From Dokdonia sp. Dokd-P16 (GTDB taxonomy: Bacteria > Bacteroidota > Bacteroidia > Flavobacteriales > Flavobacteriaceae), in the NCBI RefSeq assembly GCF_003095655.1, contig NZ_CP029151.1, forward strand, positions 2,169,001 to 2,233,000: a stretch of 64,000 nt of DNA, written 5' to 3'. Both the position numbers and the translations under genes were made by a program. The notes beneath the pieces were generated by a model. It was given only the letters and a program-made list of their open reading frames with translations. It was not told the DNA's origin and searched no databases. Positions 1,733 through 63,435 of this stretch are shown in pieces (within the stretch, counting starts at the first letter, position 1; every line of letters starts with the position of its first letter).

Positions 1733-1754
1733 TTACGCTTTCGCGAAAGCGTAA
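1733..1754. repeat. Iterated palindrome, copy 1 (intergenic, perfect 22 bp)
   Basis: The most complete copy in the window: the core GCTTTCGCGAAAGC is extended by TTAC on the left and GTAA on the right, giving a fully self-complementary 22-mer. It sits 12 nt after the ribH stop and could form a hairpin, but no T-tract follows. Confidence 0.9.
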
Positions 1755-1880
1755 TAAACAAACAACAATCTATTATATCTCATAGTAGTTGTCGTGCTAT
1801 TTGTGGTTCCTTTTGATATGATTGTTCTTAATTCTCTAGGGAGAATCAATGGAACGGTACGCTTTTTGGATACGAAATTG

Positions 1881-1888
1881 TATCTTTG
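1881..1888 (+). promoter_or_regulatory. -7 box TATCTTTG before the small membrane protein
   Basis: An exact TANNTTTG match 13 nt before the ATG at 1902. It suggests that the run from 1902 through mutL and beyond has its own promoter, separate from ribH. The -33 box is not obvious. Confidence 0.45.
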
Positions 1889-1901
1889 AAACAATAGTAT
1901 T

Positions 1902-2189
1902 ATGGGAATTATAAAACGCACAAACAAGAAGTATAGTTACGAGCCGCGCTATTATAATAGCGATAAGGAAGGGAGCCCTTTTAAGATAGAAGGGCGCTTT
2001 GATGAGCACCGTAAAACGCTCGACTACAACGGCGGGCTAAAGAAAAAAATTACTACTGCGTGGGACGAGCTCCAAGAAAGTCGTAAAGGTGGATATAACC
2101 GTACAATCGCCATTATATTCATTCTCATGGTATTATTATTTCTTTGGATTATAGACTTCGACTTATCCATATTTACAAATCCGCTATAA
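1902..2189 (+). CDS. Small flavobacterial membrane protein of unknown function
   Basis: A 95-residue protein. The first 65 residues are soluble and basic, rich in Tyr, Arg and Lys. One membrane segment follows at about 68-85 (TIAIIFILMVLLFLWII), with a short tail. It lies between ribH and mutL. I recall homologues in this position carrying the label 'riboflavin synthase subunit beta', which looks like a mis-transfer from the neighbour; nothing in the sequence supports an enzymatic role. It probably heads the mutL-rhomboid transcription unit, with only 12 nt to mutL. Confidence 0.75.
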   Translation: MGIIKRTNKKYSYEPRYYNSDKEGSPFKIEGRFDEHRKTLDYNGGLKKKITTAWDELQESRKGGYNRTIAIIFILMVLLFLWIIDFDLSIFTNPL

Positions 2190-2201
2190 CCGTAAGTCCT
2201 A

Positions 2202-4076
2202 ATGGCAGACATTATTAAACTCTTACCCGATCACGTAGCAAACCAGATCGCTGCGGGAGAAGTTGTGCAACGTCCAGCTTCTGTGGTTAAGGAATTACTT
2301 GAGAATGCTATAGATGCAGGAGCGTCTACCATTAAACTTATAGTAAAAGATGCTGGTAAAACCCTAATCCAGATTATAGATGATGGAAAAGGAATGAGTG
2401 ATACCGATGCTCGCATGAGTTTTGAACGTCACGCGACATCTAAGATTACTACAGCAGATGATTTATTCAATTTAAACACAAAAGGTTTTCGTGGGGAAGC
2501 ACTCGCATCTATTGCGGCAGTTGCTCACGTAGAACTTAAGACGCGTCCAGAAGGAGCAGAGGTAGGAACGCGCATAGAGATAGAAGGTAGTAAAATTAAT
2601 GCACAAGAGGTTTGTGCTACGCCTAAGGGAACTTCGCTTTCTGTAAAAAATCTATTTTTTAATATCCCAGCGAGACGTAATTTTTTAAAATCTAATAGTG
2701 TTGAGCTACGTCATGTAATTGACGAGTTTCAACGAGTTTCACTAGCACATCCAGATATTGCTTTTGCAATGTATCACAATGAGGGCGAGTTGTTTCAATT
2801 ACCACAAGGGAATCTCAAACAACGTATTGTGGCTATTTTTGGAGGTAAGACTAATGAGAAATTAGTTCCTGTTCAAGAAGAGACAGACATTCTTACCATA
2901 AACGGATTTGTAGTAAAACCTGAGTTTTCTAAGAAGACACGAGGGGAGCAGTTTTTCTTTGTAAATGATCGCTTTATAAAAAGTCCATATCTTAATCATG
3001 CTGTAACGGCAGCTTTTGATGGACTTTTGCCAGATAGAGCGAGAGCAAGTTACTTTTTATATTTAAAGGTAGATCCAAGTACGATTGATATCAATATACA
3101 CCCTACCAAGACAGAGATAAAGTTTGATGATGAGCATGCATTATATGCAATGCTGCGTAGTACCATCAAGCATAGTTTAGGGCAATTTAGTATTGCGCCG
3201 GTGCTCGATTTTAATCGCGATAGCGAACTTGATACTCCTTATGATTATAAAAACAAGGGTATTGTAACGCCTAAGATAGAAGTAGACCGAACATTTAATC
3301 CTTTTGAAAACGTAGCACCACCAAAACGTGGAGCGCAACGTCCAGAATTTGAGAAACCTAGTGCTGCTGGGTGGGAGAATATGTATGAAGGGATGGAATC
3401 TCAGGCAACTGCAACAAGTACGATGACTTTTGAGAAAGAGGTGAGTACTCCAGATATGTTTGAGAGCGGACTTAATGGTGCTAAGCATAGTACCCCGACT
3501 TCGTCTTCTCAAAATGAATCATCTACCTATCAACTTAATAATAAGTATATAGTTAGTACCATCAAAAGTGGGATGGTGATTATAGATCAGCATAGAGCGC
3601 ACCAGCGTGTCCTTTATGAAGAGTTCTTGCGCAACATCACGGTAAAGGAATCTGTAAGTCAGCAGTTGTTATTTCCTTTAACGCTAGCTTACAGTACTAC
3701 AGAGCTAGCGCTTATAGAAGAACTCAAAGCTGGTCTAGAAAACACAGGTTTTATCTTTGGGACTATAAGCGGAGATATTCTTGAAATAAACGGAATTCCT
3801 ACTTCTATCACAGAGAGCCAAGTGCCAGTGGTAATAGATCAATTATTAAGTGATCTTGAAAATGAGGTGCCAGATAGTGGCTTTAGTCAAACGGATACAC
3901 TAGCCAAGAGTATGGCAAAAAGTCTAGCTGTAAAAGGTGGCGTTTCATTAGATAGTGCATCTAGAGAGCATCTAGTAAATAGCCTTTTTGCTTGTAAAGA
4001 ACCGAGTATTTCACCTACTAATCGCAAGACGTTTGTGACAATGACAAGTGAAGACTTAGAAAGAAAATTTAAGTAG
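2202..4076 (+). CDS. mutL: DNA mismatch repair protein MutL
   Basis: A 624-residue MutL. The N-terminal GHKL ATPase has all signature blocks: ENAIDAGASTIKL, DDGKGMS, RHATSKI and the ATP lid TKGFRGEALASIAAV. A transducer domain follows, then a Pro/Ser/Thr-rich linker (about 350-440) and the C-terminal dimerisation/endonuclease domain. The endonuclease metal motif normally reads DQHA..ER..YE; here it reads DQHRAHQRVLYE at about residue 462, so the expected Glu-Arg is Gln-Arg. It couples MutS recognition to strand removal. Only 2 nt separate it from the first rhomboid gene. Confidence 0.96.
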   Translation: MADIIKLLPDHVANQIAAGEVVQRPASVVKELLENAIDAGASTIKLIVKDAGKTLIQIIDDGKGMSDTDARMSFERHATSKITTADDLFNLNTKGFRGEALASIAAVAHVELKTRPEGAEVGTRIEIEGSKINAQEVCATPKGTSLSVKNLFFNIPARRNFLKSNSVELRHVIDEFQRVSLAHPDIAFAMYHNEGELFQLPQGNLKQRIVAIFGGKTNEKLVPVQEETDILTINGFVVKPEFSKKTRGEQFFFVNDRFIKSPYLNHAVTAAFDGLLPDRARASYFLYLKVDPSTIDINIHPTKTEIKFDDEHALYAMLRSTIKHSLGQFSIAPVLDFNRDSELDTPYDYKNKGIVTPKIEVDRTFNPFENVAPPKRGAQRPEFEKPSAAGWENMYEGMESQATATSTMTFEKEVSTPDMFESGLNGAKHSTPTSSSQNESSTYQLNNKYIVSTIKSGMVIIDQHRAHQRVLYEEFLRNITVKESVSQQLLFPLTLAYSTTELALIEELKAGLENTGFIFGTISGDILEINGIPTSITESQVPVVIDQLLSDLENEVPDSGFSQTDTLAKSMAKSLAVKGGVSLDSASREHLVNSLFACKEPSISPTNRKTFVTMTSEDLERKFK

Positions 4077-4078
4077 GT

Positions 4079-4831
4079 ATGGGAAGAATAACTGAAACAG
4101 TAAAAATACTACTGATAGTTAATGTGATTTTCTATCTAGGATCTCTGTTTATTATTAAACCAGATCCAGCGATGCAACTATTTGCATTGTGGTTTGTAGA
4201 GCATCCTAGCTGGCAAGTGTGGCAACCACTTACGCATATGTTTATGCATGATATGGGGAGCCCTATGCACATAATTTTTAATATGTATGCACTTTGGATG
4301 TTTGGAAGCCCCATAGAAAATGCACTTGGACAAAAGCGATTTATATTCTTTTATTTTTCGGCAGGTCTTGGAGCAGCTCTGATACATACACTCGTCAACT
4401 ATTATCATTTTAATAGCGCGAGTGATGCTATAATGGCTTTAGGTTTTAATGCAAGCCAGATAAAAGAGATGACTACTAGTTTGTCGTCTCTTAATGGATA
4501 TGTAAATGCAGGGAAAATACCACTCGAATTAGGGCAGGAGTTATATAACTCATTCTATGTTCCCGCAGTAGGAGCTTCAGGTGCAATAATGGGGCTTTTG
4601 GTAGCGTTTGGGATGTTATTTCCTAATGCTTCATTGGGATTATTATTTATTCCTGTTCCTATCAAGGCAAAATACTTTATCCCTATCATTGTAGGGATAG
4701 ATTTATTTTCTGGTGTAACTGGTTTCTCAATTTTTGGGGCAAACATTGCACATTGGGCTCACTTTGGAGGTGCTTTATTTGGGTTTGTAATGATGTTCTA
4801 CTGGAAGAAACAAGGATTAGGTCAATATTGA
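4079..4831 (+). CDS. Rhomboid intramembrane serine protease 1
   Basis: A 250-residue polytopic protein. The catalytic serine is in GASGAIMG (Ser167) and the catalytic histidine in AHWAHFGGALFG (His228), with the GxxxG-type packing of the last helix. The first half has the WR/HM-like loop (PLTHMFMHDM... IIFNMYALWMFG). A long hydrophilic insertion (about 108-158) separates the early helices from the Ser helix. It probably cleaves transmembrane substrates in the inner membrane; substrates are unknown. It lies directly behind mutL and 9 nt before a second rhomboid. Confidence 0.93.
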   Translation: MGRITETVKILLIVNVIFYLGSLFIIKPDPAMQLFALWFVEHPSWQVWQPLTHMFMHDMGSPMHIIFNMYALWMFGSPIENALGQKRFIFFYFSAGLGAALIHTLVNYYHFNSASDAIMALGFNASQIKEMTTSLSSLNGYVNAGKIPLELGQELYNSFYVPAVGASGAIMGLLVAFGMLFPNASLGLLFIPVPIKAKYFIPIIVGIDLFSGVTGFSIFGANIAHWAHFGGALFGFVMMFYWKKQGLGQY

Positions 4832-5728: not shown

Positions 5729-6754
5729 ATGAAAAAGCTCGAATTCTTCGGTAAGATTATCTTCTTCGTAAATAGCATATTTGCCGTACTCCTACTAGCT
5801 AGTTATTTATTACCATTTATACCTCCCCACATTTTCCCAGCACTTTCTGTGCTTAGCCTTGTGCTTCCTGTATTGCTTATCATCAACTTTTTATTCTTGA
5901 TGTATTGGCTTTTCAGAGGAAGGAAGCAATTGTTATTATCTGCTATTATTCTAGCCTTAGGGATTACACATATTTTCTCTCTTGTACGTATAGGTGGAGG
6001 TGAGGATATAGATGATGGAACCACATTAAAGGTGCTTACCTATAATGTGCGACAGTTTAACATTCATGGTTGGTCTGATGAGGTGAAAGTAGGTGAACGT
6101 ACCATACAGCTAATTTCAGATAAAGATCCCGATGTCGTTTCCTTTCAAGAATATTATCCAGGATTTAAACCTGATGAAAGGGTTTATCGCTATGAGTATA
6201 AAGTGATGAAATCACCAAGCAAATCTTTCGGTCAGGTGATTTTTTCAAAATATCCAATTATCAATAGTGGTTCATTGGATTTTGAGAATACAGGTAATAA
6301 TGGGATTTACGCAGATATAGCGACTGCTACTGATACAGTAAGAGTGTATAATATGCATTTTCAATCATTCAGTTTATCTCCTAATCTAGCAAACTTGCAA
6401 AAGGAGAACTCAAAAAAATTATTGGGTAGATTAGGTCAAGCTTTTGAAAAGCAAGAAACTCAGGTTGCTAAGTTTTTAAATAGCGAAGTTACATCTCCTT
6501 ACCCGGTTATCGTAACTGGCGATTTTAATAACAGCGCTACTTCTTATATGTATCGCAAGGTGAAAGGTGATAAGATTGATGCTTTCGCGAAAGCGGGATC
6601 AGGAACAGGAGCAACCTTCTGGTTTGACATCATTCCTTTGCGTATAGACTTTATCTTAGTAGATGAGTCTTTACCGGTTACAAACTTTGAAACCTACGAT
6701 GTAGATTTAAGTGATCACAAGCCTTCTATGGCGACTTTTATGCTAGCTCATTAG
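5729..6754 (+). CDS. Membrane-anchored endonuclease/exonuclease/phosphatase family protein
   Basis: A 341-residue protein. Three membrane helices fill the first 85 residues; an EEP hydrolase domain fills the rest. EEP motifs are visible: LTYNVRQFN (Asn), DVVSFQEYY (metal-binding Glu), VTGDFNNSAT (Asp/Asn) and a terminal DLSDHKPSMATF (Asp-His pair). Substrate cannot be told from sequence; phosphodiesters such as nucleic acid, lipid or inositol phosphates are handled by this superfamily. The domain probably faces the periplasm. It carries one in-frame palindrome copy encoding AFAKA in a loop. Its 3' end overlaps the convergent gene by 17 nt. Confidence 0.85.
   Translation: MKKLEFFGKIIFFVNSIFAVLLLASYLLPFIPPHIFPALSVLSLVLPVLLIINFLFLMYWLFRGRKQLLLSAIILALGITHIFSLVRIGGGEDIDDGTTLKVLTYNVRQFNIHGWSDEVKVGERTIQLISDKDPDVVSFQEYYPGFKPDERVYRYEYKVMKSPSKSFGQVIFSKYPIINSGSLDFENTGNNGIYADIATATDTVRVYNMHFQSFSLSPNLANLQKENSKKLLGRLGQAFEKQETQVAKFLNSEVTSPYPVIVTGDFNNSATSYMYRKVKGDKIDAFAKAGSGTGATFWFDIIPLRIDFILVDESLPVTNFETYDVDLSDHKPSMATFMLAH
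6581..6594. repeat. Iterated palindrome, copy 2 (inside the EEP gene)
   Basis: A perfect 14-bp core, read as DAFAKAG between the Asn-bearing GDFNNS motif and the final Asp-His motif. Confidence 0.85.
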
Positions 6755-9758: not shown

Positions 9759-10361
9759 CTAAAACTTGTAATTAAAAGAGAGTCCATAATTCATGGTCTG
9801 CCCTAAGTCGTCAAAATAAAGTGCTGGACCAAAGGTCAAATCATCATCCACATCATATTGTGATAAGTGTGCATCCACATTTGCCTCTATAATCTGGAGA
9901 ATATAAACCCCAGCCGAAACTAAGATAAAAAGATCTCTTCTTCTTCTAAATTGATCTTGACCATTAATAAGTGCATCATCAGAAAAGATTTCGGTAGTAG
10001 TACCATCTTCATTGATTCTGGTAAACTCGTCTATACGACCAGCGAGTCTTTCCTTAAAGGCTGTTCTAAAACGTTCTGATTGATTACCATTAAAGGAGAC
10101 ACCATATATGGTAGAGCCCAGAGCTCCATATACTAATGGAAGTTTCCAGTAATCTTTATTATAAATTTGACCTAGACCAGGAAGTACGGCACCGTAAAAG
10201 GCGGCTTTAGCCGGTCTCAATGGGTCGTAAGGTTTTTTGCTAGATACGCCTTCTACCTCATCTGCATCTATGATAGTTTCTGCAGGAGCGTCTTGTTGCG
10301 CTTTCGCGAAAGCGTAAAAACACAATAAAAAAACCAGTAAGAGGTATTTGTTATTTTTCAC
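9759..10361 (-). CDS. DUF5683 secreted/outer-membrane-associated protein
   Basis: A 200-residue protein with an N-terminal signal peptide (KYLLLVFLLCFYAFAKA, cleaved near residue 21). The conserved DUF5683 block PLRPAKAAFYGAVLPGLGQIYNKDYW follows, with short hydrophobic stretches and an aromatic C-terminus (YGLSFNYKF) typical of an outer-membrane strand. Function is unknown. It overlaps the end of parB by 11 nt and is followed by dapB, so it is translated from the parAB transcript. The palindrome encodes the last residues of the signal peptide. Confidence 0.8.
   Translation of the reverse strand: MKNNKYLLLVFLLCFYAFAKAQQDAPAETIIDADEVEGVSSKKPYDPLRPAKAAFYGAVLPGLGQIYNKDYWKLPLVYGALGSTIYGVSFNGNQSERFRTAFKERLAGRIDEFTRINEDGTTTEIFSDDALINGQDQFRRRRDLFILVSAGVYILQIIEANVDAHLSQYDVDDDLTFGPALYFDDLGQTMNYGLSFNYKF
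10299..10314. repeat. Iterated palindrome, copy 3 (inside the DUF5683 gene)
   Basis: A 16-bp perfect copy, read on the reverse strand as YAFAKA at the end of the signal peptide, just before the likely cleavage site. Confidence 0.88.
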
Positions 10362-11256
10362 CTCTAATTAGTTTCTGTAAGCGATTAAAGTCCTCTTCTG
10401 AAGAAAAAGGAATAGAAATTTTTCCGCGACCATTTTTTGCCACTTTGATATCTACTTTTGCTCCAAAGTACTCGGCAAAGTCTTTAGTTCCTTTTTTAAT
10501 GAACTTAGGAGTTTCTTCCTTTTGCTCTGTAGGTGTTTCAATAGTAGAGGTAGCATGGTAATTCTTTACCAGTGCCTCAGTCTGTCTTACCGAAAGTTTT
10601 TCTTGTAAGATTTTTTCATAAATATCTAGCTGGTCACTAGTATCATCTACATTGATAAGTGCGCGACCGTGTCCCATAGACAAGAAGCCATCACGCATTC
10701 CCGTTTGTACAATAGGATCTAGTTTTAATAAACGTAAGTAATTTGTGATTGTAGATCTATTTTTACCCACGCGATCACTCATTTGTTCCTGCGTAAGGTT
10801 AATTTCATCAATTAATCGCTGGTAAGAAAGTGCGATTTCTATAGGGTCAAGATCTTGTCGCTGTATATTTTCAACAAGAGCCATCGTGAGACTCTCATTA
10901 TCATTTGCAATACGTATGTATGCAGGAATGGTAGCATTACCTATTAACTTTGAAGCTCTGTAACGACGCTCTCCAGAAACCAATTGGTACTTTCCGAAAC
11001 TCATCTTACGCACCGTAATAGGCTGTATAACGCCTAGTTCGCGTATAGATGAAGCAAGCTCTCTTAAAGTTTCCTCATTAAAGCTTGTACGAGGTTGAAA
11101 AGGATTAACATCAATATCACCTAGATCGAGCTCGATGATATTACCTACAACCTTGTCTGCATTTTTATCTTCGGCACTCTTAATGTCGTTTTCTGGATCT
11201 TTGAGTAATGCCGAAAGTCCGCGACCTAGCGCTTGTTTTTTTGTTGCTTTAGCCAT
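10351..11256 (-). CDS. parB: ParB/Spo0J chromosome-partition protein
   Basis: A 301-residue ParB. The N-terminal GRGLSALLKD tail is followed by the CTP-binding ParB/Srx fold (NPFQPRTSF, ITVRKM, LVSGERRYRASKLIG), the HTH that reads parS (LTQEQMSDRVGKNRSTITNYLRLLKL) and a C-terminal dimerisation region. It nucleates at parS and slides as a clamp, guiding the origin with ParA. It starts 1 nt after parA ends. By eye I found no canonical parS (TGTTNCACGTGNAACA type) close by. Confidence 0.96.
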   Translation of the reverse strand: MAKATKKQALGRGLSALLKDPENDIKSAEDKNADKVVGNIIELDLGDIDVNPFQPRTSFNEETLRELASSIRELGVIQPITVRKMSFGKYQLVSGERRYRASKLIGNATIPAYIRIANDNESLTMALVENIQRQDLDPIEIALSYQRLIDEINLTQEQMSDRVGKNRSTITNYLRLLKLDPIVQTGMRDGFLSMGHGRALINVDDTSDQLDIYEKILQEKLSVRQTEALVKNYHATSTIETPTEQKEETPKFIKKGTKDFAEYFGAKVDIKVAKNGRGKISIPFSSEEDFNRLQKLIRGEK

Positions 11257-11257
11257 T

Positions 11258-12025
11258 CTAGCTATTATTTTTTGTAATAAGTTCTTGAGCTAGGCTCAAG
11301 TAATTAGTTGCTCCTTTACTTGCTGCATCGTAGTTAATAATACTTTCACCATAACTAGGTGCCTCACTTAAACGTACGTTACGTTGTATGATTGTCTCAA
11401 AAACCATTTCACTAAAATGTTTTTGAACCTCTTCAACAACTTGATTAGATAATCGTAGTCTTGAATCAAACATTGTGAGTAAAAGCCCTTCGATATCTAA
11501 ATCTGGGTTGTGAATCTTTTGAACACTTTTTATAGTGTTTAACAATTTCCCTAATCCCTCTAGTGCAAAATACTCGCATTGAATTGGGATAATTACAGAA
11601 TCTGCCGCTGTAAGCGCATTAAGTGTAAGTAAGCCCAGTGATGGTGCGCAATCTATAAGTATGTAGTCATACTTATCTCTAAGGTGACCTATCGCTTTCT
11701 TCATCATGTACTCACGAGCCTCCTTATCTACAAGTTCTATTTCTATAGCAACAAGGTCAATGTGTGCAGGAATGATATCAAGGTTAGGTGAAGACGTCTT
11801 TATAATCGCCTCCTCTGCATTATTAGTATGCTCTAGTAGTTGGTATGTTCCTACCTCTACGGTTTCTACATCAATGCCTAGTCCAGAGGTTGCATTAGCC
11901 TGAGGATCTGCGTCAATAAGGAGTACTTTTTTCTCTAGCACGCCTAGTGAGGCAGCGAGATTAACAGAAGTAGTGGTCTTGCCTACACCACCTTTTTGGT
12001 TTGCAATAGCAATTATTTTACCCAT
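11258..12025 (-). CDS. parA: ParA/Soj chromosome-partition ATPase
   Basis: A 255-residue deviant Walker ATPase: KGGVGKTTTSVNLAASL (with the signature Lys of GKGGVGKT), DADPQANATSGLG, and YDYILIDCAPSLGLLTLNAL as Walker B. It moves ParB-bound origins by ATP-dependent, nonspecific DNA binding. It is the first gene of the reverse run parA-parB-DUF5683-dapB-lepB-WbqC. A strong terminator upstream (12092-12120) separates it from the cytochrome c gene, so its promoter should lie between 12026 and about 12090. Confidence 0.97.
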   Translation of the reverse strand: MGKIIAIANQKGGVGKTTTSVNLAASLGVLEKKVLLIDADPQANATSGLGIDVETVEVGTYQLLEHTNNAEEAIIKTSSPNLDIIPAHIDLVAIEIELVDKEAREYMMKKAIGHLRDKYDYILIDCAPSLGLLTLNALTAADSVIIPIQCEYFALEGLGKLLNTIKSVQKIHNPDLDIEGLLLTMFDSRLRLSNQVVEEVQKHFSEMVFETIIQRNVRLSEAPSYGESIINYDAASKGATNYLSLAQELITKNNS

Positions 12026-12203: not shown

Positions 12204-12629
12204 TTATTTTGAGATAGCTTTCACCTCTTCTTCGGTAATCATTTCTTTTTGAGTGTTTCCCCAGTTATTCATAATGTAGTTCATCACATCTGCCACTTCA
12301 TCTTCATAAAGTTCTAGGTTTGCCATCACGCCATTATAGTCAACACCGTTTACAGTAATAGGTCCTTGCTGTCCATATTTTACAGCTTTAATTGCCTCTT
12401 TATAACGATCTTCTGTGAGCCAGTCTGAACCTGCCAGCGGTGGGAAAGTTCCTGCTACGCCTTCTCCTTTGCCTAAGTGACATTGTATACAAAAGTCTTG
12501 GTACACCTCTGCACCACGTTCTATAGACTCGGCAAGTGGGTCTTGAGAGGTGTAAACTTCTTTTTCCGCTTTCGCGAAAAATAGTAAAACACTAACTCCT
12601 GCCGTACATAAACTTATAAGTAGCTTCAT
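12204..12629 (-). CDS. Small c-type cytochrome
   Basis: A 141-residue exported cytochrome c. A signal peptide (LLISLCTAGVSVLLFFAKA) precedes a single haem site CIQCH (residues 47-51), and a Met-bearing helix region (GVMANLELYEDEVADVMNYI) offers the axial ligand. The start codon overlaps the stop of the upstream dehydrogenase (TAATG), so translation is coupled. Inference: it accepts electrons from that quinoprotein in the periplasm and feeds the respiratory chain. A degenerate palindrome copy encodes FFAKA at the end of the signal peptide. Confidence 0.9.
   Translation of the reverse strand: MKLLISLCTAGVSVLLFFAKAEKEVYTSQDPLAESIERGAEVYQDFCIQCHLGKGEGVAGTFPPLAGSDWLTEDRYKEAIKAVKYGQQGPITVNGVDYNGVMANLELYEDEVADVMNYIMNNWGNTQKEMITEEEVKAISK
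12568..12581. repeat. Iterated palindrome, copy 4 (degenerate, inside the cytochrome c gene)
   Basis: GCTTTCGCGAAA is intact, but the right arm ends AA instead of GC. It is read in reverse as FFAKA at the end of the signal peptide, the same protein position as copy 3. Confidence 0.7.
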
Positions 12630-13993: not shown

Positions 13994-14015
13994 TTACGCT
14001 TTCGCGAAAGCTTAA
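13994..14015. repeat. Iterated palindrome, copy 5 (intergenic, before trxB)
   Basis: 22 bp with a single mismatch to self-complementarity (T for G at 14012). It ends 12 nt before the trxB ATG, so a hairpin here would sit close to the translation start. Confidence 0.88.
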
Positions 14016-21722: not shown

Positions 21723-21738
21723 CGCTTTCGCGAAAGCG
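21723..21738. repeat. Iterated palindrome, copy 8 (intergenic, flotillin to AAA+)
   Basis: A 16-bp perfect copy with TA to its left, in the 154-bp gap between the flotillin stop and the AAA+ start. Confidence 0.88.
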
Positions 21739-27739: not shown

Positions 27740-27755
27740 CGCTTTCGCGAAAGCG
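27740..27755. repeat. Iterated palindrome, copy 11 (intergenic, GIN to NTF2-like)
   Basis: A 16-bp perfect copy followed by TAA, in the 128-bp gap upstream of the GIN gene. Confidence 0.88.
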
Positions 27756-38306: not shown

Positions 38307-41064
<2,758 letters not shown>

Positions 41065-45165: not shown

Positions 45166-45251
45166 ACGTATCATAACAAAATAATTAGCAGGTTCAAAGC
45201 GTTTATTTTTGAGCACTATTAATTAAGTTATGTTATGTAATTGATTTTACG

Positions 45252-45259
45252 TAGTTTTG
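45252..45259 (+). promoter_or_regulatory. bamD: -7 box TAGTTTTG before bamD
   Basis: An exact TANNTTTG match 19 nt before the ATG at 45279; it would drive bamD-rpoZ-coaBC-porD. Confidence 0.45.
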
Positions 45260-45278
45260 CCTGCTGTTTCAGACCCTT

Positions 45279-46091: not shown

Positions 46092-46093
46092 AG

Positions 46094-46444: not shown

Positions 46445-46448
46445 ATAG

Positions 46449-47657: not shown

Positions 47658-48541
47658 GAATCTTTACATTATTAATAGTCTTATTGTTTTCTTTCAATTC
47701 AATAGCTCAAGAGCTTAATGCTGTTGTTGTTATTAATGCAGAGCAAACTAACAAAGCAGATCTTCAGGTTTTTAAAACACTAGAGCGATCACTTACAGAG
47801 TTTGTTAATAATACAAAGTGGACAGATCGCAGATTCAAACAGCAAGAGCGCATTGATTGCTCTTTTAATATCATTATTACTCAACAAGACGGAAATAATT
47901 TTAGAGCTACTGTGCAGGTAGGGGCCTCAAGACCTGTATACGGATCTAATTATGATACAGCTACTTTTAATTTTAATGACAAGCAGTTTGATTTTGAATA
48001 TACAGAGTTTCAACCTCTAATTTACAACCCTAATACGTTTGACTCTAACTTAGTGTCTGTGATGGCTTTCTATGCTTATACTATTATAGGTATGGATGCA
48101 AATACGTTTAAGCTCAATGATGGTGATAAGTATTTTCAAGAAGCAAAGCAGATTGTTACCACAGCACAACCTAATAATCAGACGGGATGGAATCCACAAG
48201 ATGGTTCTCAATCTAGATACAGATTAAACGAAGATTTATTGTCTCCTAACTTTAGAGAGTTTGCTGGAATCATGTATAGCTACCACCGTACAGGTTTAGA
48301 TTTTATGGTTGATGATAAAAAGCGCAGTAAGCAAACCATATCAACTACTTTATCTCAGTTTCAATCTTTATACAAGAAAAGGCCTAATAATTTTTTAACT
48401 CGTGTGTTCTTTGATACCAAGGCAGAAGAGATTGCATCTATATTCTCATCAGGACCTTCGGTTAATATAACATCACTTGTAGAAGTACTCAATCAAGTAG
48501 CACCAACTAAATCTAATTTTTGGAGGCAGATTAAGTTTTAA
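47654..48541 (+). CDS. porD: PorD-like type IX secretion protein (DUF4835)
   Basis: A 295-residue exported protein. A signal peptide ends about residue 18 (LFSFNSIAQ) and the DUF4835 body follows: AVVVINAEQTNKADLQVFKTLERSL, FNNTKW-like WTDRRFKQQERIDCSFNIIIT, FNFNDKQFDFEYTEFQPLIYNP and a helical end. The family includes PorD of the type IX secretion system. It sits between coaBC and recN, the conserved flavobacterial order. A terminator follows 29 nt after the stop. Confidence 0.85.
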   Translation: MRIFTLLIVLLFSFNSIAQELNAVVVINAEQTNKADLQVFKTLERSLTEFVNNTKWTDRRFKQQERIDCSFNIIITQQDGNNFRATVQVGASRPVYGSNYDTATFNFNDKQFDFEYTEFQPLIYNPNTFDSNLVSVMAFYAYTIIGMDANTFKLNDGDKYFQEAKQIVTTAQPNNQTGWNPQDGSQSRYRLNEDLLSPNFREFAGIMYSYHRTGLDFMVDDKKRSKQTISTTLSQFQSLYKKRPNNFLTRVFFDTKAEEIASIFSSGPSVNITSLVEVLNQVAPTKSNFWRQIKF

Positions 48542-48570
48542 AATTATTTATCTAAAATAATCCATGTTTT

Positions 48571-48595
48571 AAATTCCCGTCTTGCGGGAATTTTT
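48571..48595 (+). terminator. Terminator of the bamD-porD operon
   Basis: AAATTCCCG, 5-nt loop, CGGGAATTT, then TT. It separates porD from recN. Confidence 0.85.
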
Positions 48596-48660
48596 CATTA
48601 GCTTTAATCGACATTTGTAAACGTATAAAAGCATTAAGATTAATTAAATATTTACAACTA

Positions 48661-50313
48661 TTGCTTACATCATTATCTATAAAAAATTATGCACTTATCC
48701 AGTCTGTTCAACTCAGATTTGATAAAGGTTTTACGGTGATTACTGGTGAGACTGGTGCTGGTAAGTCCATCCTTTTGGGAGCACTTGGTCTTATTACTGG
48801 TAAGCGTGCAGATATGTCAAGCGCTGGAGATGCAACACAGAAGTGCATTGTAGAAGGTGTTTTTCATATAGAAGGATATCAACTTCATCCTTTTTTTAAA
48901 AAGCATGATCTTGATTATGAAAATGCGACAATTGTAAGAAGGGAGATTCTTCCTTCTGGAAAAAGCCGGGCATTTATAAATGACACTCCTGTAACACTAG
49001 CACAGCTTACTATATTAGGATCAAAACTAGTAGACATACATAGCCAGAATAAAACTTTACAGGTAGTAGAAAATGATTTTCAATTTGAGATGATTGATAC
49101 ATTTTCAGACAATCTCAAATTACTTGGACAGTATAAAGAATCTTTTAAGGCTTGGAAACTCTCACAGAGCGAACTAAAAGAATTACTAGAAAGAAAAAAA
49201 CAGGCACAGCTAGAATATGATTATCAGTCCTTTCTTTTTACAGAGCTAGATGAGGCTTCTTTGAAAGAAGGGGAGTATGAGTCTTTAGAAGAAGAGCTTA
49301 ATACACTAAGTAATGCAGATGAGATTATGCAACAGCTTGCTACAGCTGTTCAAAACATTTCTCTAGATGAAAGTGGAGCTATAGATCAGCTCACGGCGGC
49401 TAGAGCATCATTATCTAGATTAAATAATTATGGTGCACAGTATACAGCAATCTACGAGCAGCTTAATAGTGCGCTTTTAGAACTAGAAGATATAGGGGCA
49501 TCATTGAGTGAAATGTCTGATGCGGTAGATGCAGATCCTCTTACGCTAGAGCGACTTAATAACAGAATGCAATTGCTGCATTCTTTACTTAAGAAACACC
49601 AAGTAGCTACAGTAGAAGAACTTATTGATATTAGAAATAATCTTGATAATGATTTACAAGATATTGCAGGAGTTGATGATAAGATTCAAGCACTAGAAGA
49701 TAAAATTAAAACGCAACATAATAAAGCAAGCACAGTAGCAGCAAAGCTTCATAATGAGCGTGCAACGGCAGCGCCACATTTAAAGTCGCTTGTTGAGAAA
49801 TTACTGATAGAGTTAGGGATGCCTAATGCACAATTTCAAGTGTCTCTAGCTACGCAAGAAGATCTTCATGCTTCAGGTAATGATGTGTTGGAGTTTTTAT
49901 TCTCGGCAAATAAAGGAAGTGAGCTCAAACCTTTAGGAAAAGGTGCTTCAGGAGGAGAACTTTCAAGAGTTATGCTCGCACTCAAGTCGGTACTAAGTAA
50001 GCACAAGCAATTGCCTACGCTTATTTTTGATGAAATTGATACTGGAGTGAGTGGTGATATTGCAGTAAAGATGGGTGGTATACTTAAAAAAATGGGTCGT
50101 ACTATGCAGCTCATAAGTATCACACACTTACCGCAAATAGCGGGACAAGGAGCTTCTCATTTTAAAGTGTATAAGAAAGATACAGAGGAGCGCACGCAAA
50201 CCTTTATCGAGCAGCTAGATGAGGATGCTCGTATTGTTGAGATAGCGGCAATGCTAGGAGGTAACCAGCAAAGTCAGGCAGCAATAGACCACGCAAAAAA
50301 TTTACTTAATTAG
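48661..50313 (+). CDS. recN: DNA repair protein RecN
   Basis: A 550-residue SMC-like protein. It begins at TTG 48661 (LTSLSIKNYALI; no ATG is near and the family starts here). Walker A GETGAGKSILLGALG at about residue 30, long coiled coil in the middle (about 160-380), ABC signature KGASGGELSRVMLALKSVL, and Walker B LIFDEIDTGVSGDIAVKMG. It takes part in double-strand-break repair. It lies downstream of the porD terminator and upstream of fabI. Confidence 0.95.
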   Translation: MLTSLSIKNYALIQSVQLRFDKGFTVITGETGAGKSILLGALGLITGKRADMSSAGDATQKCIVEGVFHIEGYQLHPFFKKHDLDYENATIVRREILPSGKSRAFINDTPVTLAQLTILGSKLVDIHSQNKTLQVVENDFQFEMIDTFSDNLKLLGQYKESFKAWKLSQSELKELLERKKQAQLEYDYQSFLFTELDEASLKEGEYESLEEELNTLSNADEIMQQLATAVQNISLDESGAIDQLTAARASLSRLNNYGAQYTAIYEQLNSALLELEDIGASLSEMSDAVDADPLTLERLNNRMQLLHSLLKKHQVATVEELIDIRNNLDNDLQDIAGVDDKIQALEDKIKTQHNKASTVAAKLHNERATAAPHLKSLVEKLLIELGMPNAQFQVSLATQEDLHASGNDVLEFLFSANKGSELKPLGKGASGGELSRVMLALKSVLSKHKQLPTLIFDEIDTGVSGDIAVKMGGILKKMGRTMQLISITHLPQIAGQGASHFKVYKKDTEERTQTFIEQLDEDARIVEIAAMLGGNQQSQAAIDHAKNLLN

Positions 50314-50404
50314 GATAGTTTACATAGAAACCACGATATTTACACTCTTTTAGCAACAACAAGCTAGAGAGCAAAACAAAACACATCAAACCATTAATAA
50401 TATT

Positions 50405-51232
50405 ATGAGTTATAATTTACTTAAAGGAAAGCGCGGAATTATTTTTGGAGCATTGGATCCTAATTCAATTGCTTGGAAAACCGCTGAGCGTGTGCACGAA
50501 GAAGGAGGAACTTTTGTTCTTACAAATGCACCTATCGCTATGCGTATGGGACAGATTAATGACCTTGCCGAAAAGACAGGTTCAGAAATCATACCTGCAG
50601 ACGCAACATCTTTAGAAGATCTTGAAAACCTTGTAACTAAGGCTCAAGAAATTCTAGGTGGTAAATTAGACTTCGTTTTACACTCTATTGGGATGTCTAT
50701 AAACGTACGTAAAGGGCGTGCTTACACAGACCAAAAGTATGACTGGACGCAAAAGGGAACAGACGTTTCTGCAATGTCTTTCCATAAAGTGATGCAAACG
50801 CTTTATAAGCAAGACGCAATGAACGAGTGGGGAAGCATCGTTGCTCTTACCTATATGGCAGCACAGCGTGTTTTTCCAGATTATAACGATATGGCAGATA
50901 ATAAGGCATACTTAGAGTCTATCGCACGTAGCTTTGGTTACTTCTACGGTAAAGAAAAGAACGTACGTGTAAATACAATCTCTCAATCTCCTACACCTAC
51001 TACGGCTGGACAAGGAGTAAAAGGATTTGATGGATTTATAGCTTATGCAGAAAAAATGAGCCCGTTAGGTAATGCTACTGCTCAAGATTGTGCAGATTAT
51101 ACCATTACATTATTTTCAGACCTTACAAAGCGTGTAACTATGCAAAACCTTTATAATGATGGAGGTTTTAGTAATACAGGTGTAAGTAATGAGGTGATGG
51201 AATCGTTCATGAAAGCAGAAGGACACGAATAG
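50405..51232 (+). CDS. fabI: Enoyl-ACP reductase (NADH)
   Basis: A 275-residue short-chain-type reductase completing each fatty acid elongation cycle. Rossmann loop KRGIIFGALDPNSIAWKTAE, FVLHSIGMSINVRKGRAYTD, and the active-site Tyr-x6-Lys in DYNDMADNKA; the block VRVNTISQSPTPTTAGQGVKGF ends the core. This is the classic triclosan-target family. Own promoter region (91 bp upstream); a palindrome copy and then a terminator follow the stop. Confidence 0.96.
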   Translation: MSYNLLKGKRGIIFGALDPNSIAWKTAERVHEEGGTFVLTNAPIAMRMGQINDLAEKTGSEIIPADATSLEDLENLVTKAQEILGGKLDFVLHSIGMSINVRKGRAYTDQKYDWTQKGTDVSAMSFHKVMQTLYKQDAMNEWGSIVALTYMAAQRVFPDYNDMADNKAYLESIARSFGYFYGKEKNVRVNTISQSPTPTTAGQGVKGFDGFIAYAEKMSPLGNATAQDCADYTITLFSDLTKRVTMQNLYNDGGFSNTGVSNEVMESFMKAEGHE

Positions 51233-51244
51233 ATTTTTTTCTTT

Positions 51245-51264
51245 TACGCTTTCGCGAAAGCGTA
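51245..51264. repeat. Iterated palindrome, copy 18 (intergenic, perfect 20 bp)
   Basis: TACGCTTTCGCGAAAGCGTA, 12 nt after the fabI stop and 13 nt before the fabI terminator stem; the same spacing behind a stop codon as copy 1 after ribH. Confidence 0.9.
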
Positions 51265-56356: not shown

Positions 56357-57250
56357 TTTATTTATAAACGATGCTATTTCTTCAAAAGGCGTCTGGTAGT
56401 CGAACCAATTGATAGTCTCATCACGGCGATACCAAGTCATTTGTCTTTTAGCAAAACGTCGCGTGTTAGTTTTTATATTTTCAATAGCTCGTTCTAGGGT
56501 AACTGTGCCTTCAAAATATTCAAAAAGCTCTCTGTAGCCTACAGTTATAAGGGCGTTGTTATGCTTTCGCGAAAGCAAACTTTCCACCTCTTCAATCAAA
56601 CCATTTTCAATCATAAGATCTACACGTAAATTAATACGGTCGTACATGATTTTACGGTCTGCTTGTAATCCTATTTTGATGGTCTCAAAATTGCGCTTAG
56701 GTTTAGGTTTATTTCTATAAAATGAAAAAGGCTCACCTGCCGAAAGACATACTTCTAAAGCTCTTATAACACGTTGTGTATTTTGTATATCAACTTGCTT
56801 GTAATACGTTGGGTCTTTCTCTAGTAGGAGATCTTGTAGCGCTTCAATACCTTCCCTCTCGTGCAAATCTTTGAGCTTTGCTCGTACACCATCTTTTACT
56901 GCGGGAAACTCATCTAATCCATTAATAACGGCATCCACATACATCCCTGAGCCACCTACCATAACAAGGGTGTCGTATTTTTTATGTAGTGCGGTAATTT
57001 TCTCGATAGCGTCTTTTTCAAAGTGTCCCACACTGTAGTCTTGATTTACAGAGAGGTGTTGTATAAAATGATGCGGGGCTGCAGCGAGCTCCTCAGGTTC
57101 TGGAACAGCTGTACCTATATACATCTCTTTAAAGAATTGTCTTGAGTCTGCAGATAGAATTTCTGTCTTGAAATATTGTGCTACTTTAATGGAAAGTGCA
57201 GTTTTACCTATTGCAGTAGGTCCTACGATGGGGATGAGGTATTTACTCAT
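56339..57250 (-). CDS. miaA: tRNA dimethylallyltransferase
   Basis: A 303-residue MiaA from ATG 57250 (MSKYLIPIVGPTAIGKTALS); an upstream in-frame ATG would add 22 residues that overlap the channel gene and lack family similarity. P-loop GPTAIGKTAL, LSADSRQFFKEM, MVGGSGMYVDAVI, VGYREL and WYRRDETINWFD. It adds dimethylallyl to A37 of tRNAs reading U-starting codons. It overlaps the channel gene's stop by 8 nt. A palindrome copy encodes LLSRKH. Confidence 0.95.
   Translation of the reverse strand: MSKYLIPIVGPTAIGKTALSIKVAQYFKTEILSADSRQFFKEMYIGTAVPEPEELAAAPHHFIQHLSVNQDYSVGHFEKDAIEKITALHKKYDTLVMVGGSGMYVDAVINGLDEFPAVKDGVRAKLKDLHEREGIEALQDLLLEKDPTYYKQVDIQNTQRVIRALEVCLSAGEPFSFYRNKPKPKRNFETIKIGLQADRKIMYDRINLRVDLMIENGLIEEVESLLSRKHNNALITVGYRELFEYFEGTVTLERAIENIKTNTRRFAKRQMTWYRRDETINWFDYQTPFEEIASFINKKTHHS
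56563..56576. repeat. Iterated palindrome, copy 19 (inside miaA)
   Basis: A 14-bp perfect core read in the third frame as SLLSRKHN, just before the VGYREL block. Confidence 0.85.
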
Positions 57251-59597: not shown

Positions 59598-60245
59598 TTA
59601 TCTAGCACCAAAAATACTGCTTCCTACTCTAATCATGGTACTTCCTTTGTCAATTGCGAGTTTATAATCACCACTCATTCCTGAGGATAGTATGGTGAGA
59701 TTTGCGCTTTCGCGAAAGCGTAAAAATAATCCTTCCAGTAACTCAAACTCTGCCGCAACTTGATCTTGGTCGTCTGTAAAAGTTGCCATTCCCATCAGAC
59801 CTACCACATTTACATGGGGATAGTTTTCTAATGTGTTTTCTTCAAAAAGCTTAACGGCATCTTGAACAGCCATACCAAATTTTGAATCTTCACGAGCAAT
59901 TTTAATCTGAATAAGAATATCAATCACTCGGTCATTTGCTTCTGCCTGTTTATTTACTTCTTTTATGAGTTTTAAGCGATCTACAGCATGTATTAGGCTC
60001 ACGTATGGAGCCATATATTTGACTTTGTTTGTTTGAACGTGACCTATCATGTGCCACTGGATATCCTTGGGCATTTCTTCCCACTTGTCTGTCATTTCTT
60101 GGATCTTGTTTTCTCCAAAAATGCGTTGCCCAGTTTCATAAGCCTCCATAAGGTCTGAAACAGGTTTAGTTTTTGAAACAGCTACAAGAGTAACGTGTGA
60201 AGGAATGTTTTCGCGAAAGCGTAAGATATTTTCTGCTATACTCAT
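59598..60245 (-). CDS. YggS-family PLP-binding protein
   Basis: A 215-residue PLP homeostasis protein of the alanine-racemase-like barrel. PLP lysine in VTLVAVSKTKPVSDL, FGENKIQEM, WHMIGHVQTNKVKYM, and the phosphate loop SGMSGDYKLAIDKGSTMIRVGSSIFG. It buffers PLP and affects amino-acid metabolism. The start codon overlaps the DUF1015 stop (TAATG). Two palindrome copies lie in it. Confidence 0.95.
   Translation of the reverse strand: MSIAENILRFRENIPSHVTLVAVSKTKPVSDLMEAYETGQRIFGENKIQEMTDKWEEMPKDIQWHMIGHVQTNKVKYMAPYVSLIHAVDRLKLIKEVNKQAEANDRVIDILIQIKIAREDSKFGMAVQDAVKLFEENTLENYPHVNVVGLMGMATFTDDQDQVAAEFELLEGLFLRFRESANLTILSSGMSGDYKLAIDKGSTMIRVGSSIFGAR
59705..59720. repeat. Iterated palindrome, copy 20 (inside yggS)
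   Basis: A 16-bp perfect copy, read in the second frame as LFLRFRESAN. Confidence 0.88.
60207..60220. repeat. Iterated palindrome, copy 21 (degenerate, inside yggS)
   Basis: GT for GC at the left end (GTTTTCGCGAAAGC); read as ILRFREN near the N-terminus. Right extension GTAA is intact. Confidence 0.7.
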
Positions 60246-61465: not shown

Positions 61466-61478
61466 GTTATGTGTACTT

Positions 61479-61500
61479 AAGACGCACTATGGTGCGTCTT
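61479..61500. terminator. Hairpin between DUF1015 and the 3-hydroxyacyl-CoA dehydrogenase
   Basis: AAGACGCAC, TATG loop, GTGCGTCTT: a perfect 9-bp stem after the dehydrogenase stop. The T-tract is poor on the reverse strand, so termination is likely but not certain. Confidence 0.55.
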
Positions 61501-61525
61501 TATTAAGCTTTGTGTGGTGTTGGGA

Positions 61526-62416
61526 TTATGAAGCAAACATTGCTGCGACTTTTTCTGCCTTGCGACTTTCTTTATAATCGTAAAAACCTTCACTAGACTT
61601 CACTCCTAATTTTCCAGCTCTTACCATATTCACTAAAAGCGGGCAAGGTGCATATTTTGGATTTTTAAAACCGTCGTGCATGACTTCAAGAATAGATAGA
61701 CAAACATCTAGACCTATAAAATCTGCAAGTTGTAATGGACCCATAGGGTGCGCCATTCCAAGTTTCATAACCGTGTCAATTTCGTATACGCCAGCCACAC
61801 CGTTGTATAGCGTTTCTATCGCTTCATTAATCATAGGCATAAGGATGCGATTTGCTACAAATCCAGGGTAATCATTAACCTCTACCGGTACTTTACCTAA
61901 CTTTTCTGAAAGTTCCATGATGGTCTTTGTGGTTAGGTCACTAGTATTATAACCTCTTATGATTTCTACCAGTTTCATGATAGGCACAGGGTTCATAAAG
62001 TGCATTCCTATTACTTGGTCTGGACGTTCTGTAACAGCCGCAATCTGAGTAATTGAAATGGATGATGTGTTTGTAGCAAGTATACAAGAGTCACTTGTAG
62101 CAGCATCAAGAGATTCAAAAATCTTTAGTTTTAAATCTACGTTCTCTGTAGCCGCTTCTACTACAAGCTCAGCATTCTTAACACCTTCTGCAAGGTTTGT
62201 GTACGTAGTGATTTTATCAAGAGTTTGCTGCTTTTCTATAGCAGTAATACGCTCTTTGGCAACCATTCTATCTAGATTTTTTGAGATAGTACTAAACCCG
62301 CGGTCTAGTGAATCTTGAGAGATATCTACTAGTTGTACTTGGTAACCACTTTGAGCAAAAGTGTGGGCAATTCCGTTACCCATTGTTCCTGCTCCTATAA
62401 CTGCTATATTTTTCAT
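61526..62416 (-). CDS. 3-hydroxyacyl-CoA (3-hydroxybutyryl-CoA) dehydrogenase
   Basis: A 296-residue NAD-dependent enzyme. GAGTMGNGIAHTFAQSGYQVQLVD (NAD), TNTSSISITQIA, HFMNPVPIMKLVEII (catalytic His-Glu region), and GFVANRILMPMINEAIETL with a C-terminal helical dimer domain (GPLQLADFIGLDVCLSIL). It oxidises 3-hydroxyacyl-CoA in fatty acid or butyrate-type breakdown; the sequence does not fix chain length. Single gene with the Gfo/Idh/MocA gene upstream, 59 nt apart. Confidence 0.93.
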   Translation of the reverse strand: MKNIAVIGAGTMGNGIAHTFAQSGYQVQLVDISQDSLDRGFSTISKNLDRMVAKERITAIEKQQTLDKITTYTNLAEGVKNAELVVEAATENVDLKLKIFESLDAATSDSCILATNTSSISITQIAAVTERPDQVIGMHFMNPVPIMKLVEIIRGYNTSDLTTKTIMELSEKLGKVPVEVNDYPGFVANRILMPMINEAIETLYNGVAGVYEIDTVMKLGMAHPMGPLQLADFIGLDVCLSILEVMHDGFKNPKYAPCPLLVNMVRAGKLGVKSSEGFYDYKESRKAEKVAAMFAS

Positions 62417-62475
62417 AAATGAAGTGCTTTGTGTGCTCCCTTGTAAAAGGGTTTGTGTGTTTGAATATGTGTTTT

Positions 62476-63435
62476 TTAAAAATCTGCAATAATCATCTTG
62501 GCTACTCGTAAAGCTTCGGTTCCAGCTTCAAGTGATACGATTGGGGTGGTATTTTCATTTATTGCTTTCGCGAAAGCGTCTAGCTCATCAAGTATCGCGT
62601 TATTGCTAGGTACATCTGGATTGTCAAAATAAATTTGCTTTTTGATTCCTTCTGCATTCTGAAGAATCATTGCAAAATCATCTGGAGATTCTGGTGCGTC
62701 TTTCATCTTTACAACCTCTACTTTTTTCTCAAGAAAATCTACCGAAATGTATGCGTCCTTCTGAAAGAAACGTGCTTTGCGCATGTTTTTCATAGAGATA
62801 CGACTCGCGGTAAGGTTTGCAACACATCCGTTTTCGAACTCAATACGAGCATTTGCAATATCTGGAGTTTCTGATATGACAGATACGCCACTTGCATTCA
62901 CACTTTTTACAGGACTATTTACCACGCTTAATATTGCGTCAATGTCATGTATCATAAGATCTAAAACTACAGGAACATCTGTCCCTCTAGGATTAAATTC
63001 TGCAAGTCTATGCGCCTCTATAAACATAGGACTCTTAATGGAATGACTCACAGACATGAATGCAGGATTGAAGCGCTCTACATGACCTACTTGACCTAGA
63101 ACGTTGTGTTCTTTTGCAAGCGTGAGTAGTTTTTCTGCCTCCTCAACTGTGCTTGTTATTGGTTTCTCAATAAAGAGGTGCTTTCCAGCTTTGATTACCT
63201 TTTCTGCACTTGCATAGTGATAGGTGGTAGGAGTTACTACATCTACCATATCACAGGCGTTGATTAAATCTTCTTCGGTCTCAAAAGCAGTGTAACCAAA
63301 TTCTTGAGAGATGGCATCTCTAACCTCTTTTGAAGTGTCGTAAAACCCTACAAGTTCGTAGTGTTCAGAAAGGTTAAGAAGTTTTAAGTGTATTTTCCCC
63401 AAGTGTCCAGCACCGAGTACGCCAGCTTTAAGCAT
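62476..63435 (-). CDS. Gfo/Idh/MocA-family oxidoreductase
   Basis: A 319-residue two-domain NAD(P) oxidoreductase. Rossmann motif GVLGAGHLGKIHLKLL; the catalytic GKHLFIEKPI with its Lys; then a beta-sheet C-terminal domain (VVLDLMIHDIDAILSVVNS) and YISVDFLEKKVEVV. The substrate, a sugar or polyol, cannot be told. A palindrome copy encodes LDAFAKAI near the C-terminus. A -7 box lies 17 nt upstream of the start. Confidence 0.92.
   Translation of the reverse strand: MLKAGVLGAGHLGKIHLKLLNLSEHYELVGFYDTSKEVRDAISQEFGYTAFETEEDLINACDMVDVVTPTTYHYASAEKVIKAGKHLFIEKPITSTVEEAEKLLTLAKEHNVLGQVGHVERFNPAFMSVSHSIKSPMFIEAHRLAEFNPRGTDVPVVLDLMIHDIDAILSVVNSPVKSVNASGVSVISETPDIANARIEFENGCVANLTASRISMKNMRKARFFQKDAYISVDFLEKKVEVVKMKDAPESPDDFAMILQNAEGIKKQIYFDNPDVPSNNAILDELDAFAKAINENTTPIVSLEAGTEALRVAKMIIADF
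62564..62577. repeat. Iterated palindrome, copy 22 (inside the Gfo/Idh/MocA gene)
   Basis: A 14-bp perfect core, read in reverse as DAFAKAI about 30 residues from the C-terminus. Confidence 0.85.

Follow-up and report, generated by a model that had tools for sequence, protein, structure and literature searches.

A palindrome recurs in a 64-kb stretch of the Dokdonia chromosome

The single-contig, 3.62-Mb genome of Dokdonia sp. Dokd-P16 (G000) contains a 14-bp palindrome, GCTTTCGCGAAAGC, that recurs throughout the 64-kb stretch analyzed here, referred to as the window (G000:C1:2169001–2233000). The 10-mer TTTCGCGAAA occurs 22 times in the window, 17 times inside a perfect 14-mer and five times in a degenerate copy, as a preliminary description of this DNA had counted. 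The longest copy reported there is also present, a 22-bp perfect palindrome at 1733–1754 that consists of the 14-mer preceded by TTAC and followed by GTAA, and the reported spacing range agrees with the shortest (126 bp, 18393 to 18519) and longest (6286 bp, 44962 to 51248) gaps. The count of eight intergenic sites stands in part: six lie between open reading frames (ORFs), and eight is reached only when two small, doubtful ORFs are disregarded. Genes were called from ORFs of at least 85 aa (at least 50 aa for the placement of window sites) rather than by a trained caller. Allowing up to three mismatches, the window contains 25 matches compared to a mean of 2.46 and a maximum of 7 in dinucleotide shuffles.

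Window sites are conserved in related species

Five Dokdonia genomes (G006, G008, G340, G003, and G004) align to the window with identities of 94, 87, 81, 81, and 75%, respectively; the orthologous regions of the first four are not independent of the window. All 17 perfect sites are unchanged in each of the first four relatives, and nine of the ten that align are unchanged in G004, where the other seven are unaligned. Control 14-mers were unchanged in 52 (G006), 25 (G008), 10.5 (G340), 10.8 (G003), and 2.9% (G004) of cases. In the reverse comparison, perfect sites of the relatives were imperfect in the window in 0 of 17 (G006), 1 of 18 (G008), 4 of 21 (G340), 4 of 21 (G003), and 1 of 10 (G004) cases, after dropping the sites unaligned to the window (2 of 19, 2 of 20, 4 of 25, 3 of 24, and 10 of 20 in the same order). 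The existence of such sites points to slow turnover.

Ten perfect sites lie within genes. The preferred coding frame reads AFAK(A), which accounts for 60 of the 116 coding sites in 704 kb, with 23 and 33 in the other frames. Sites in this frame are found at 6581–6594 (identical in 5/5 relatives, where flank identity is 0.70–0.97), in a ribD-like gene at 36027–36040 (5/5), in a dihydrodipicolinate synthase-like gene at 44962–44975 (4/5, absent in G004), and in a GFO/IDH/MocA oxidoreductase gene at 62564–62577. The last is shared by 5/5 relatives, G331, and G210, and the other six aligned genomes have same-length codons without the site. A site read in the FRES frame lies in an alanine-racemase-like gene at 59706–59719; it is present in 5/5 relatives, G331, and G210 and is absent from the other six aligned genomes, four of them Nonlabens. 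The site in the IPP-transferase gene (56563–56576) is identical in 5/5 relatives, is present in G331, and is absent from 9/9 aligned genomes of other genera. The DUF5683 gene adjoining parB contains a site at 10300–10313 (5/5 relatives), and a long ATPase-like gene (16772–21649) contains two, at 18393–18406 and, 126 bp beyond, at 18519–18532, both identical in 4/4 aligned relatives. The remaining genic site, 23991–24004, is identical in 4/4 aligned relatives and has a flank identity of ~0.71 in three of them.

Seven perfect sites are intergenic or probably so. Those at 13998–14011, 30485–30498 (flank identity down to 0.70), and 51248–51261 are identical in 5/5 relatives, and those at 27741–27754 and 34282–34295 (flank identity down to 0.68) are identical in 4/4 aligned relatives. 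The site at 21724–21737 is probably intergenic, and the site at 1737–1750, the center of the 22-bp palindrome, is intergenic if the small ORF at 1733–1927 is not a gene; both are identical in 4/4 aligned relatives. Among the degenerate copies, the half-form GCTTTCGCGAAAAA is genic at 12568–12581 (the same in 4/4 aligned relatives), intergenic at 25990–26003 (core altered in 2/4), and present at 36848–36861, where G008, G340, and G003 have a perfect 14-mer. The half-form TTTTTCGCGAAAGC in ligA (40029–40042) is lost in G004 and is the same in the other four relatives. A one-mismatch site at 60207–60220, in the alanine-racemase-like gene, is perfect in G340, G003, and 4/4 aligned Nonlabens genomes.

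The alignments also show that identity to the Dokdonia species switches blockwise between 12000 and 40000 of the window. G340 reaches ~0.93 at 12–20 kb, and G008 mostly follows the G340 pattern at 12–40 kb. These mosaic segments suggest exchange between Dokdonia species.

Comparable coding sites arose by substitution

For eleven coding sites, alignment to orthologues from Nonlabens, G210, G331, G330, g85, and g60 was attempted, and it succeeded at five. At these five sites the other genera have an equal or larger number of codons, which shows that the site is not an inserted segment. The single exception in codon number is a one-codon gap in G261 at 59706, and a few codon indels adjoin 44962 and 59706. 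The site changes amino acids at some coding positions. At 62564, for example, other genera have ETFADA-like codons where Dokdonia, G331, and G210 encode AFAKA, and the 44962 site is present in 0 of the 8 other aligned genomes.

The word is iterated genome-wide in a few marine genera

The perfect 14-mer occurs 808 times in the whole G000 genome compared to 0 occurrences of the reversed control word, and 13 Dokdonia genomes contain 369–905 perfect copies each. Copies are thus neither at the control level nor confined to the window, and the genome-wide iteration proposed in the preliminary description is borne out. There is one perfect copy per 3.4–4.8 kb, and the mean gap between cores is 2.8–4.6 kb. 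The 14-mer is absent from eight genomes of other families in the order. In a survey of 299 Flavobacteriaceae genomes (236 genera), five have more than 100 copies: two Dokdonia, two Nonlabens (g19; 578 and 664 copies), and G210 (408 copies). The next highest counts are 19, 17, and 16, and 238 of the 299 genomes have none. Forward-strand counts of the 12-mer are 977 in D. sinensis, 583 in N. tegetincola, 679 in N. xylanidelens, 650 in N. antarcticus, 580 in N. xiamenensis, and 570 in BBFL7. Several handles are duplicates that denote one genome each (G261/G319, which is N. xylanidelens; G121/G326; G010/G320; G011/G321; G005/G331), and G331 belongs to the Dokdonia genus group because its hit coordinates are identical to those of G005.

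A six-protein tree, in which five taxa are placed by ParB alone, groups Nonlabens with g60, g85, Altibacter, and G330 with a support of 0.99, apart from Dokdonia and G210. Among the taxa grouped with Nonlabens, g60, g85, and Altibacter have few copies and G330 is intermediate. The separation of Nonlabens from Dokdonia and G210 in this small tree means that the trait may have moved or been lost. The metagenome bin G330 (SAT51) has 135 and 129 12-mers in 5.0 Mb, and may be a mixed bin or a partial state.

Several other genera have a few copies, and in four of them (G121, G234, G107, and G098) these include a pair 933 bp apart. The one such pair placed in its genes is that of Aquimarina (L049, cluster at 115–4401), which lies within an outer membrane efflux protein gene adjoining a multicopper oxidase gene. 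This efflux/multicopper-oxidase DNA was probably transferred from the motif-bearing group.

The element is wider than the palindrome and strictly spelled

Alignment of 126 sites from 464 kb of G000 gives the consensus ACGCTTTCGCGAAAGCGT. The element is wider than the palindrome and consists of an 18-bp core within ~50 bp of symmetric flanks. The left flank is poor in C (5–10% compared to 18.7%) and the right flank is poor in G to ~25 bp from the center at these sites. Intergenic sites show this bias, as do genic sites, where it holds on either side with respect to the strand of the gene; G340 and Nonlabens have it too. Identity at 8–25 bp from the center is ordinary, meaning the flanks keep their composition and not their sequence. 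When single-stranded, the core can fold into an 8–10-bp hairpin, as it did at all four sites examined for folding. A longer hairpin formed by the flanks was considered and rejected because dyad matches (4.95 of 16) do not exceed those of shuffled flanks (5.19), showing that the flanks do not pair.

The spelling of the core is nearly binary. Five sequence sets totaling 1.23 Mb contain 279 perfect, 25 one-mismatch, and 59 two-mismatch copies compared to 0, 1, and 5, respectively, for the reversed control word; some of the sets are orthologous, hence not all copies are independent. The two-mismatch class includes a second form, GCTTTCGCGAAA without the following GC. This form accounts for 34 12-mers in 464 kb of G000, where A follows in 29 of the 34 and where degenerate copies are mostly of this form. 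Only three second-form 12-mers are present in 324 kb of Nonlabens.

Sites are evenly spaced and enriched between genes

The coefficient of variation (CV) of the gaps was 0.53 in 304 kb of contiguous G000 sequence (102 cores, 99 gaps, mean 2958 bp) whereas random placement gave 0.97 ± 0.09 and none of 5000 simulations was as even. The CV over 744 kb of G000 was 0.67 (random, 0.95 ± 0.06), and values of 0.55 for Nonlabens (random, 0.90 ± 0.10), 0.35 for G004 (random, 0.94 ± 0.18), 0.57 for G006, and 0.63 for G340 were obtained. Since the regions L400–L404 (92 kb) were selected on account of their gaps, they do not enter the spacing tests; L405 and L406 were included in the wider test. No trend of site density from origin to terminus is visible, as judged by eye without a statistic.

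The three longest gaps among the first 100 perfect 14-mers of G000 proved on reading to contain additional cores, giant genes without sites, and a 23-kb stretch adjoining a tRNA-Thr gene. The 23-kb core-free stretch (G000:C1 ~89947–113220; L400, L401) encodes proteins matching PF05139 (erythromycin-esterase family) and PF00144 (β-lactamase family) and looks like a recent acquisition, an appearance that concerns this one stretch. Core-free giant genes are located at L240:6279–15911 (3210 codons) and L404:8408–14320 (1970 codons, with fn3 and CshA repeats).

Sites are enriched about three-fold between genes in Dokdonia and Nonlabens, with 91 of 207 intergenic sites in G000 (27.0 expected), 23 of 62 in G340 (8.6 expected), and 21 of 74 in Nonlabens (6.2 expected). 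This enrichment and the 8–10-bp hairpin would suit a mobile or structural repeat, either a REP-like element or a bidirectional transcription terminator. Such an origin is largely refuted and deserves hardly any weight. The comparable coding sites contain no inserted segment, convergent gaps are not a preferred place (0.85 sites per kb compared to 1.28 in tandem gaps), and the hairpin is often preceded by a T-rich and followed by an A-rich segment, the reverse of the order in a terminator. Insertion by transposition, the trait of REP/RAYT systems, is not seen at the five coding sites, although RAYT genes were not searched for, and the window has no Rfam match at or above a family's gathering score.

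Some phages carry the element

Copies are found in phage contigs from IMG/VR, with at least seven in 37.4 kb, at least five in 27.0 kb, and at least four in 23.9 kb. Another contig (at least three copies in 38.3 kb) has a Mu-type transposase nearest to that of Winogradskyella phage Peternella_1, and a fifth (at least four copies in 30.6 kb) has an integrase gene. The transposase and the integrase indicate that at least two of the motif-bearing phage contigs look temperate. Because the contigs were found through the motif, the share of phages lacking it cannot be read from them. Uptake sequences accumulate in Pasteurellaceae prophages (PMC7371117). Two Nonlabens phages of 35.7 kb each, P12024S and P12024L, lack any copy; ERF and YqaJ recombination genes are annotated in them. 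A 67-bp query returned five chance-level matches from isolate-phage records and two from plasmid records, none labeled flavobacterial.

These phages bear on a Chi-like role, in which the element would mark self DNA or recombination sites by stopping a nuclease or loading a recombinase and, as a palindrome, would act from either side. E. coli Chi occurs about once per 4.6 kb, close to the density of the element. The 5′-flanks of both strands are GT-rich and C-poor, the spacing is even, and some phages carry the site, all of which fit. We nevertheless regard this role as improbable. P12024S and P12024L are the phages likeliest to gain from a protective mark and have none, although ERF and YqaJ could substitute for it. 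Known Chi words are 5–8 nt and directional. Identity hardly varies with distance from the sites, and a recombination hot spot that would appear as an identity gradient was rejected since no clear gradient surrounds them.

Candidate reader proteins

The preliminary description suggested that the palindrome might be read by a methylase or by a dimeric DNA-binding protein, and compared it to the cyanobacterial HIP1 or to nucleoid-occlusion/macrodomain sites. The DNA methyltransferase (MTase) families PF01555, PF00145, and PF02086 score above cut-off in only 4, 7, and 9 of 19 motif-bearing handles (18 genomes), and all three are missing from G000 and G261; PF02384 and other MTase families were not searched. 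A palindrome made and kept by an MTase with coupled repair, as in the HIP1 comparison, would explain a GC-rich-centered palindrome iterated across the genome. This patchy distribution makes it very improbable, as does the scarcity of the inner TCGCGA outside the motif (6 of 28 occurrences in the window), and the three families give no support to a methylase as the reader.

The ParB/Noc family was considered as the reader and rejected, and the nucleoid-occlusion/macrodomain proposal finds no support there. G000 has one ParB, as do 9 of 11 motif-bearing genomes (G010 and G331 have two), and extra copies also occur in four of nine motif-free genomes. Across 12 genomes, motif-bearing and motif-free, the ParB helix-turn-helix stretch hardly differs. 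Near-canonical parS is retained in G000 as three separate parS-like sites near the switch in GC skew. The window itself includes chromosomal parB and parA (10351–12025), ~0.84 Mb from these parS-like sites. A dimeric DNA-binding protein as the reader is possible.

Another explanation is that an abundant dimeric or tetrameric nucleoid protein bound every 3–5 kb anchors, spaces, or insulates the chromosome. The symmetric, footprint-like 50-bp element, the even spacing of individually conserved sites with no visible origin-to-terminus trend, and the copies in phage contigs, two of them temperate-looking, are consistent with an architectural site, which would then be an unusually even chromosome ruler. 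We consider this role unlikely, though deserving of weight. The scarcity of single-mismatch copies is unlike ordinary protein-binding sites (PMC1626085), and with ~800 interchangeable sites the selection on each would be weak. The DNA-binding stretch of the chromosomal ParB has hardly changed, and no candidate protein was found.

A second iterated word in neighboring genera

A non-palindromic word, CTTCGGAA, is abundant on both strands in G032 (2187 copies), G121 (Altibacter lentus, 1228), G096 (865), and G306 (499) compared to 322, 221, 120, and 95 copies, respectively, of its reversed control. It is 5–7 times as frequent as the control in g21, g85, and Altibacter. The loci examined were L286, L292, L283, L284, and L322, and the word is followed by A in 13 of 13 copies at the g85 loci L283, L284, and L322. 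Between two g85 species one of four aligned copies is conserved, a comparison of very few copies. A depletion of the word in Dokdonia was only apparent (6 seen compared to 5.6–7.1 expected from Markov models). CTTCGGAA could itself be an uptake word, or a Chi. One g85 genome also has the hairpin GAAARTCCTCGCGGAYTTTC four times in 20 kb (L284:4777, 6140, 10870 (−), and 3881 (+)).

The palindrome as a proposed uptake-signal-like tag

By analogy with known systems, we lean toward the palindrome being the core of a tag similar to an uptake signal, which transformation and recombination would maintain. This reading is favored because the traits of the element match the published signatures of DNA uptake sequences (PMC1626085, PMC2397512), namely the uptake signal sequences (USS) of Pasteurellaceae and the DNA uptake sequences (DUS) of Neisseriaceae. 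The element has a strict consensus with few single-mismatch copies, the perfect window sites are far more conserved than their surroundings, the comparable coding sites arose by substitution and not by insertion, and spacing is more regular than random. Non-coding DNA is preferred in G000, G340, and Nonlabens, with many sites in genes. The mosaic segments of the window, the lack of copies in P12024S and P12024L, and the several copies in some phage contigs count in its favor as well. Regulatory binding sites, by contrast with USS, tolerate variation in spelling (PMC1626085). DUS vary much less than the DNA around them and are missing from genes acquired recently (PMC2397512). This set of traits fits DNA uptake sequences better than the HIP1-like/methylase or nucleoid-occlusion/macrodomain proposals. 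The element is not classified as a USS or DUS because their defining trait is preferential uptake shown by experiment.

In the proposed mechanism, a surface protein of marine flavobacteria would bind the ~50-bp element and favor the uptake of fragments that carry a copy; the palindromic symmetry of the site makes a dimeric reader probable. The fragments taken up would recombine into the chromosome. Such biased exchange would restore and spread intact sites and keep every copy perfect, would space them such that a fragment of a few kb usually contains one, and would allow sites to override protein sequence. Uptake and recombination as the cause of the pattern are what we infer from the observed sites, flanks, spelling, conservation, and spacing.

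Competence has a precedent in the family. Riemerella (Flavobacteriaceae) shows natural competence through machinery that is known only in part, and R. columbina favors DNA of its own kind (PMC8459023, PMC7965970). The top k-mers of two Riemerella species and of Flavobacterium johnsoniae are mostly A/T runs (PMC7965970). The Riemerella transformation candidate DUF5689 is encoded beside a carboxypeptidase-regulatory-domain protein (PMC8459023), and in G000 DUF5689 likewise adjoins such a protein.

Several observations weigh against an uptake tag. All 18 genomes tested have DUF5689 whether or not they carry the motif, and it was rejected as the receptor because its tree does not group the motif-bearing genomes. 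Identity around the sites is nearly flat and, if anything, slightly higher near the sites in G340 and G003, unlike the more divergent surroundings of Neisseria DUS. In G000, gaps of up to 36.8 kb bring the CV of the first 100 perfect 14-mers to 1.07. Enrichment between genes is missing in the small set of G210 and G331 (2 of 17 sites, 1.7 expected), where the flank bias is also weaker. USS and DUS words are non-palindromic and occur ~1 per kb (PMC1626085, PMC2397512), a density, typical for such words but not defining them, that the element, at 1 per 3–5 kb, does not reach. The literature on Dokdonia and Nonlabens, as far as it was covered, shows no transformation work, and competence is thus unproved in these genera. 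Weak selection in huge populations could also make an architectural site evenly spaced and conserved.

To our knowledge, uptake codes are known only from the Pasteurellaceae and Neisseriaceae, and no earlier report of the 14-mer element was found in the part of the literature covered. The palindrome in its symmetric 50-bp element could be the first DNA uptake code of Bacteroidota, with a receptor unlike ComP, common to the possibly non-sister marine genera Dokdonia and Nonlabens and with neighboring genera using CTTCGGAA, a proposal in which our confidence is just short of even. If true, the tag would define a marine gene-exchange community, and a third independent uptake code, this one palindromic, would demonstrate the recurrent evolution of DNA self-tagging. 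The tag would also serve as a probe for the Flavobacteriaceae DNA receptor and as a sequence label for gene flow in sea water, as in the metal-related cluster of other genera.

Comparison with known iterated sequences

Sites of the parS/Noc type are 14–16-bp palindromes with TTTC...GAAA arms. They resemble the element in being palindromic but are few, and G000 has a separate near-canonical parS and a ParB that is nearly unchanged. E. coli Chi has a similar density, but it is short and directional where the element is a palindrome. HIP1 (GCGATCGC) of cyanobacteria is, like the element, a palindrome iterated across the genome, but it is 8 bp long and tied to methyltransferases (PMC4390886), and no such link is found here in three MTase families. 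The DUS dialects of Neisseriaceae share with the element a very high conservation of sites and a clade-specific word (PMC2397512, PMC3630211), but they are non-palindromic, have no known flanking motif, and are read by ComP. The USS of Pasteurellaceae (AAGTGCGGT with AT-rich flanking motifs) and the element both have a strict consensus, are more even than random, are not insertions, prefer intergenic DNA yet are common in genes, have a flanking motif, and extend over several genera (PMC1626085). The element differs from USS in being a 14–18-bp palindrome with a lower density and symmetric C-poor/G-poor flanks, and in belonging to the phylum Bacteroidota.

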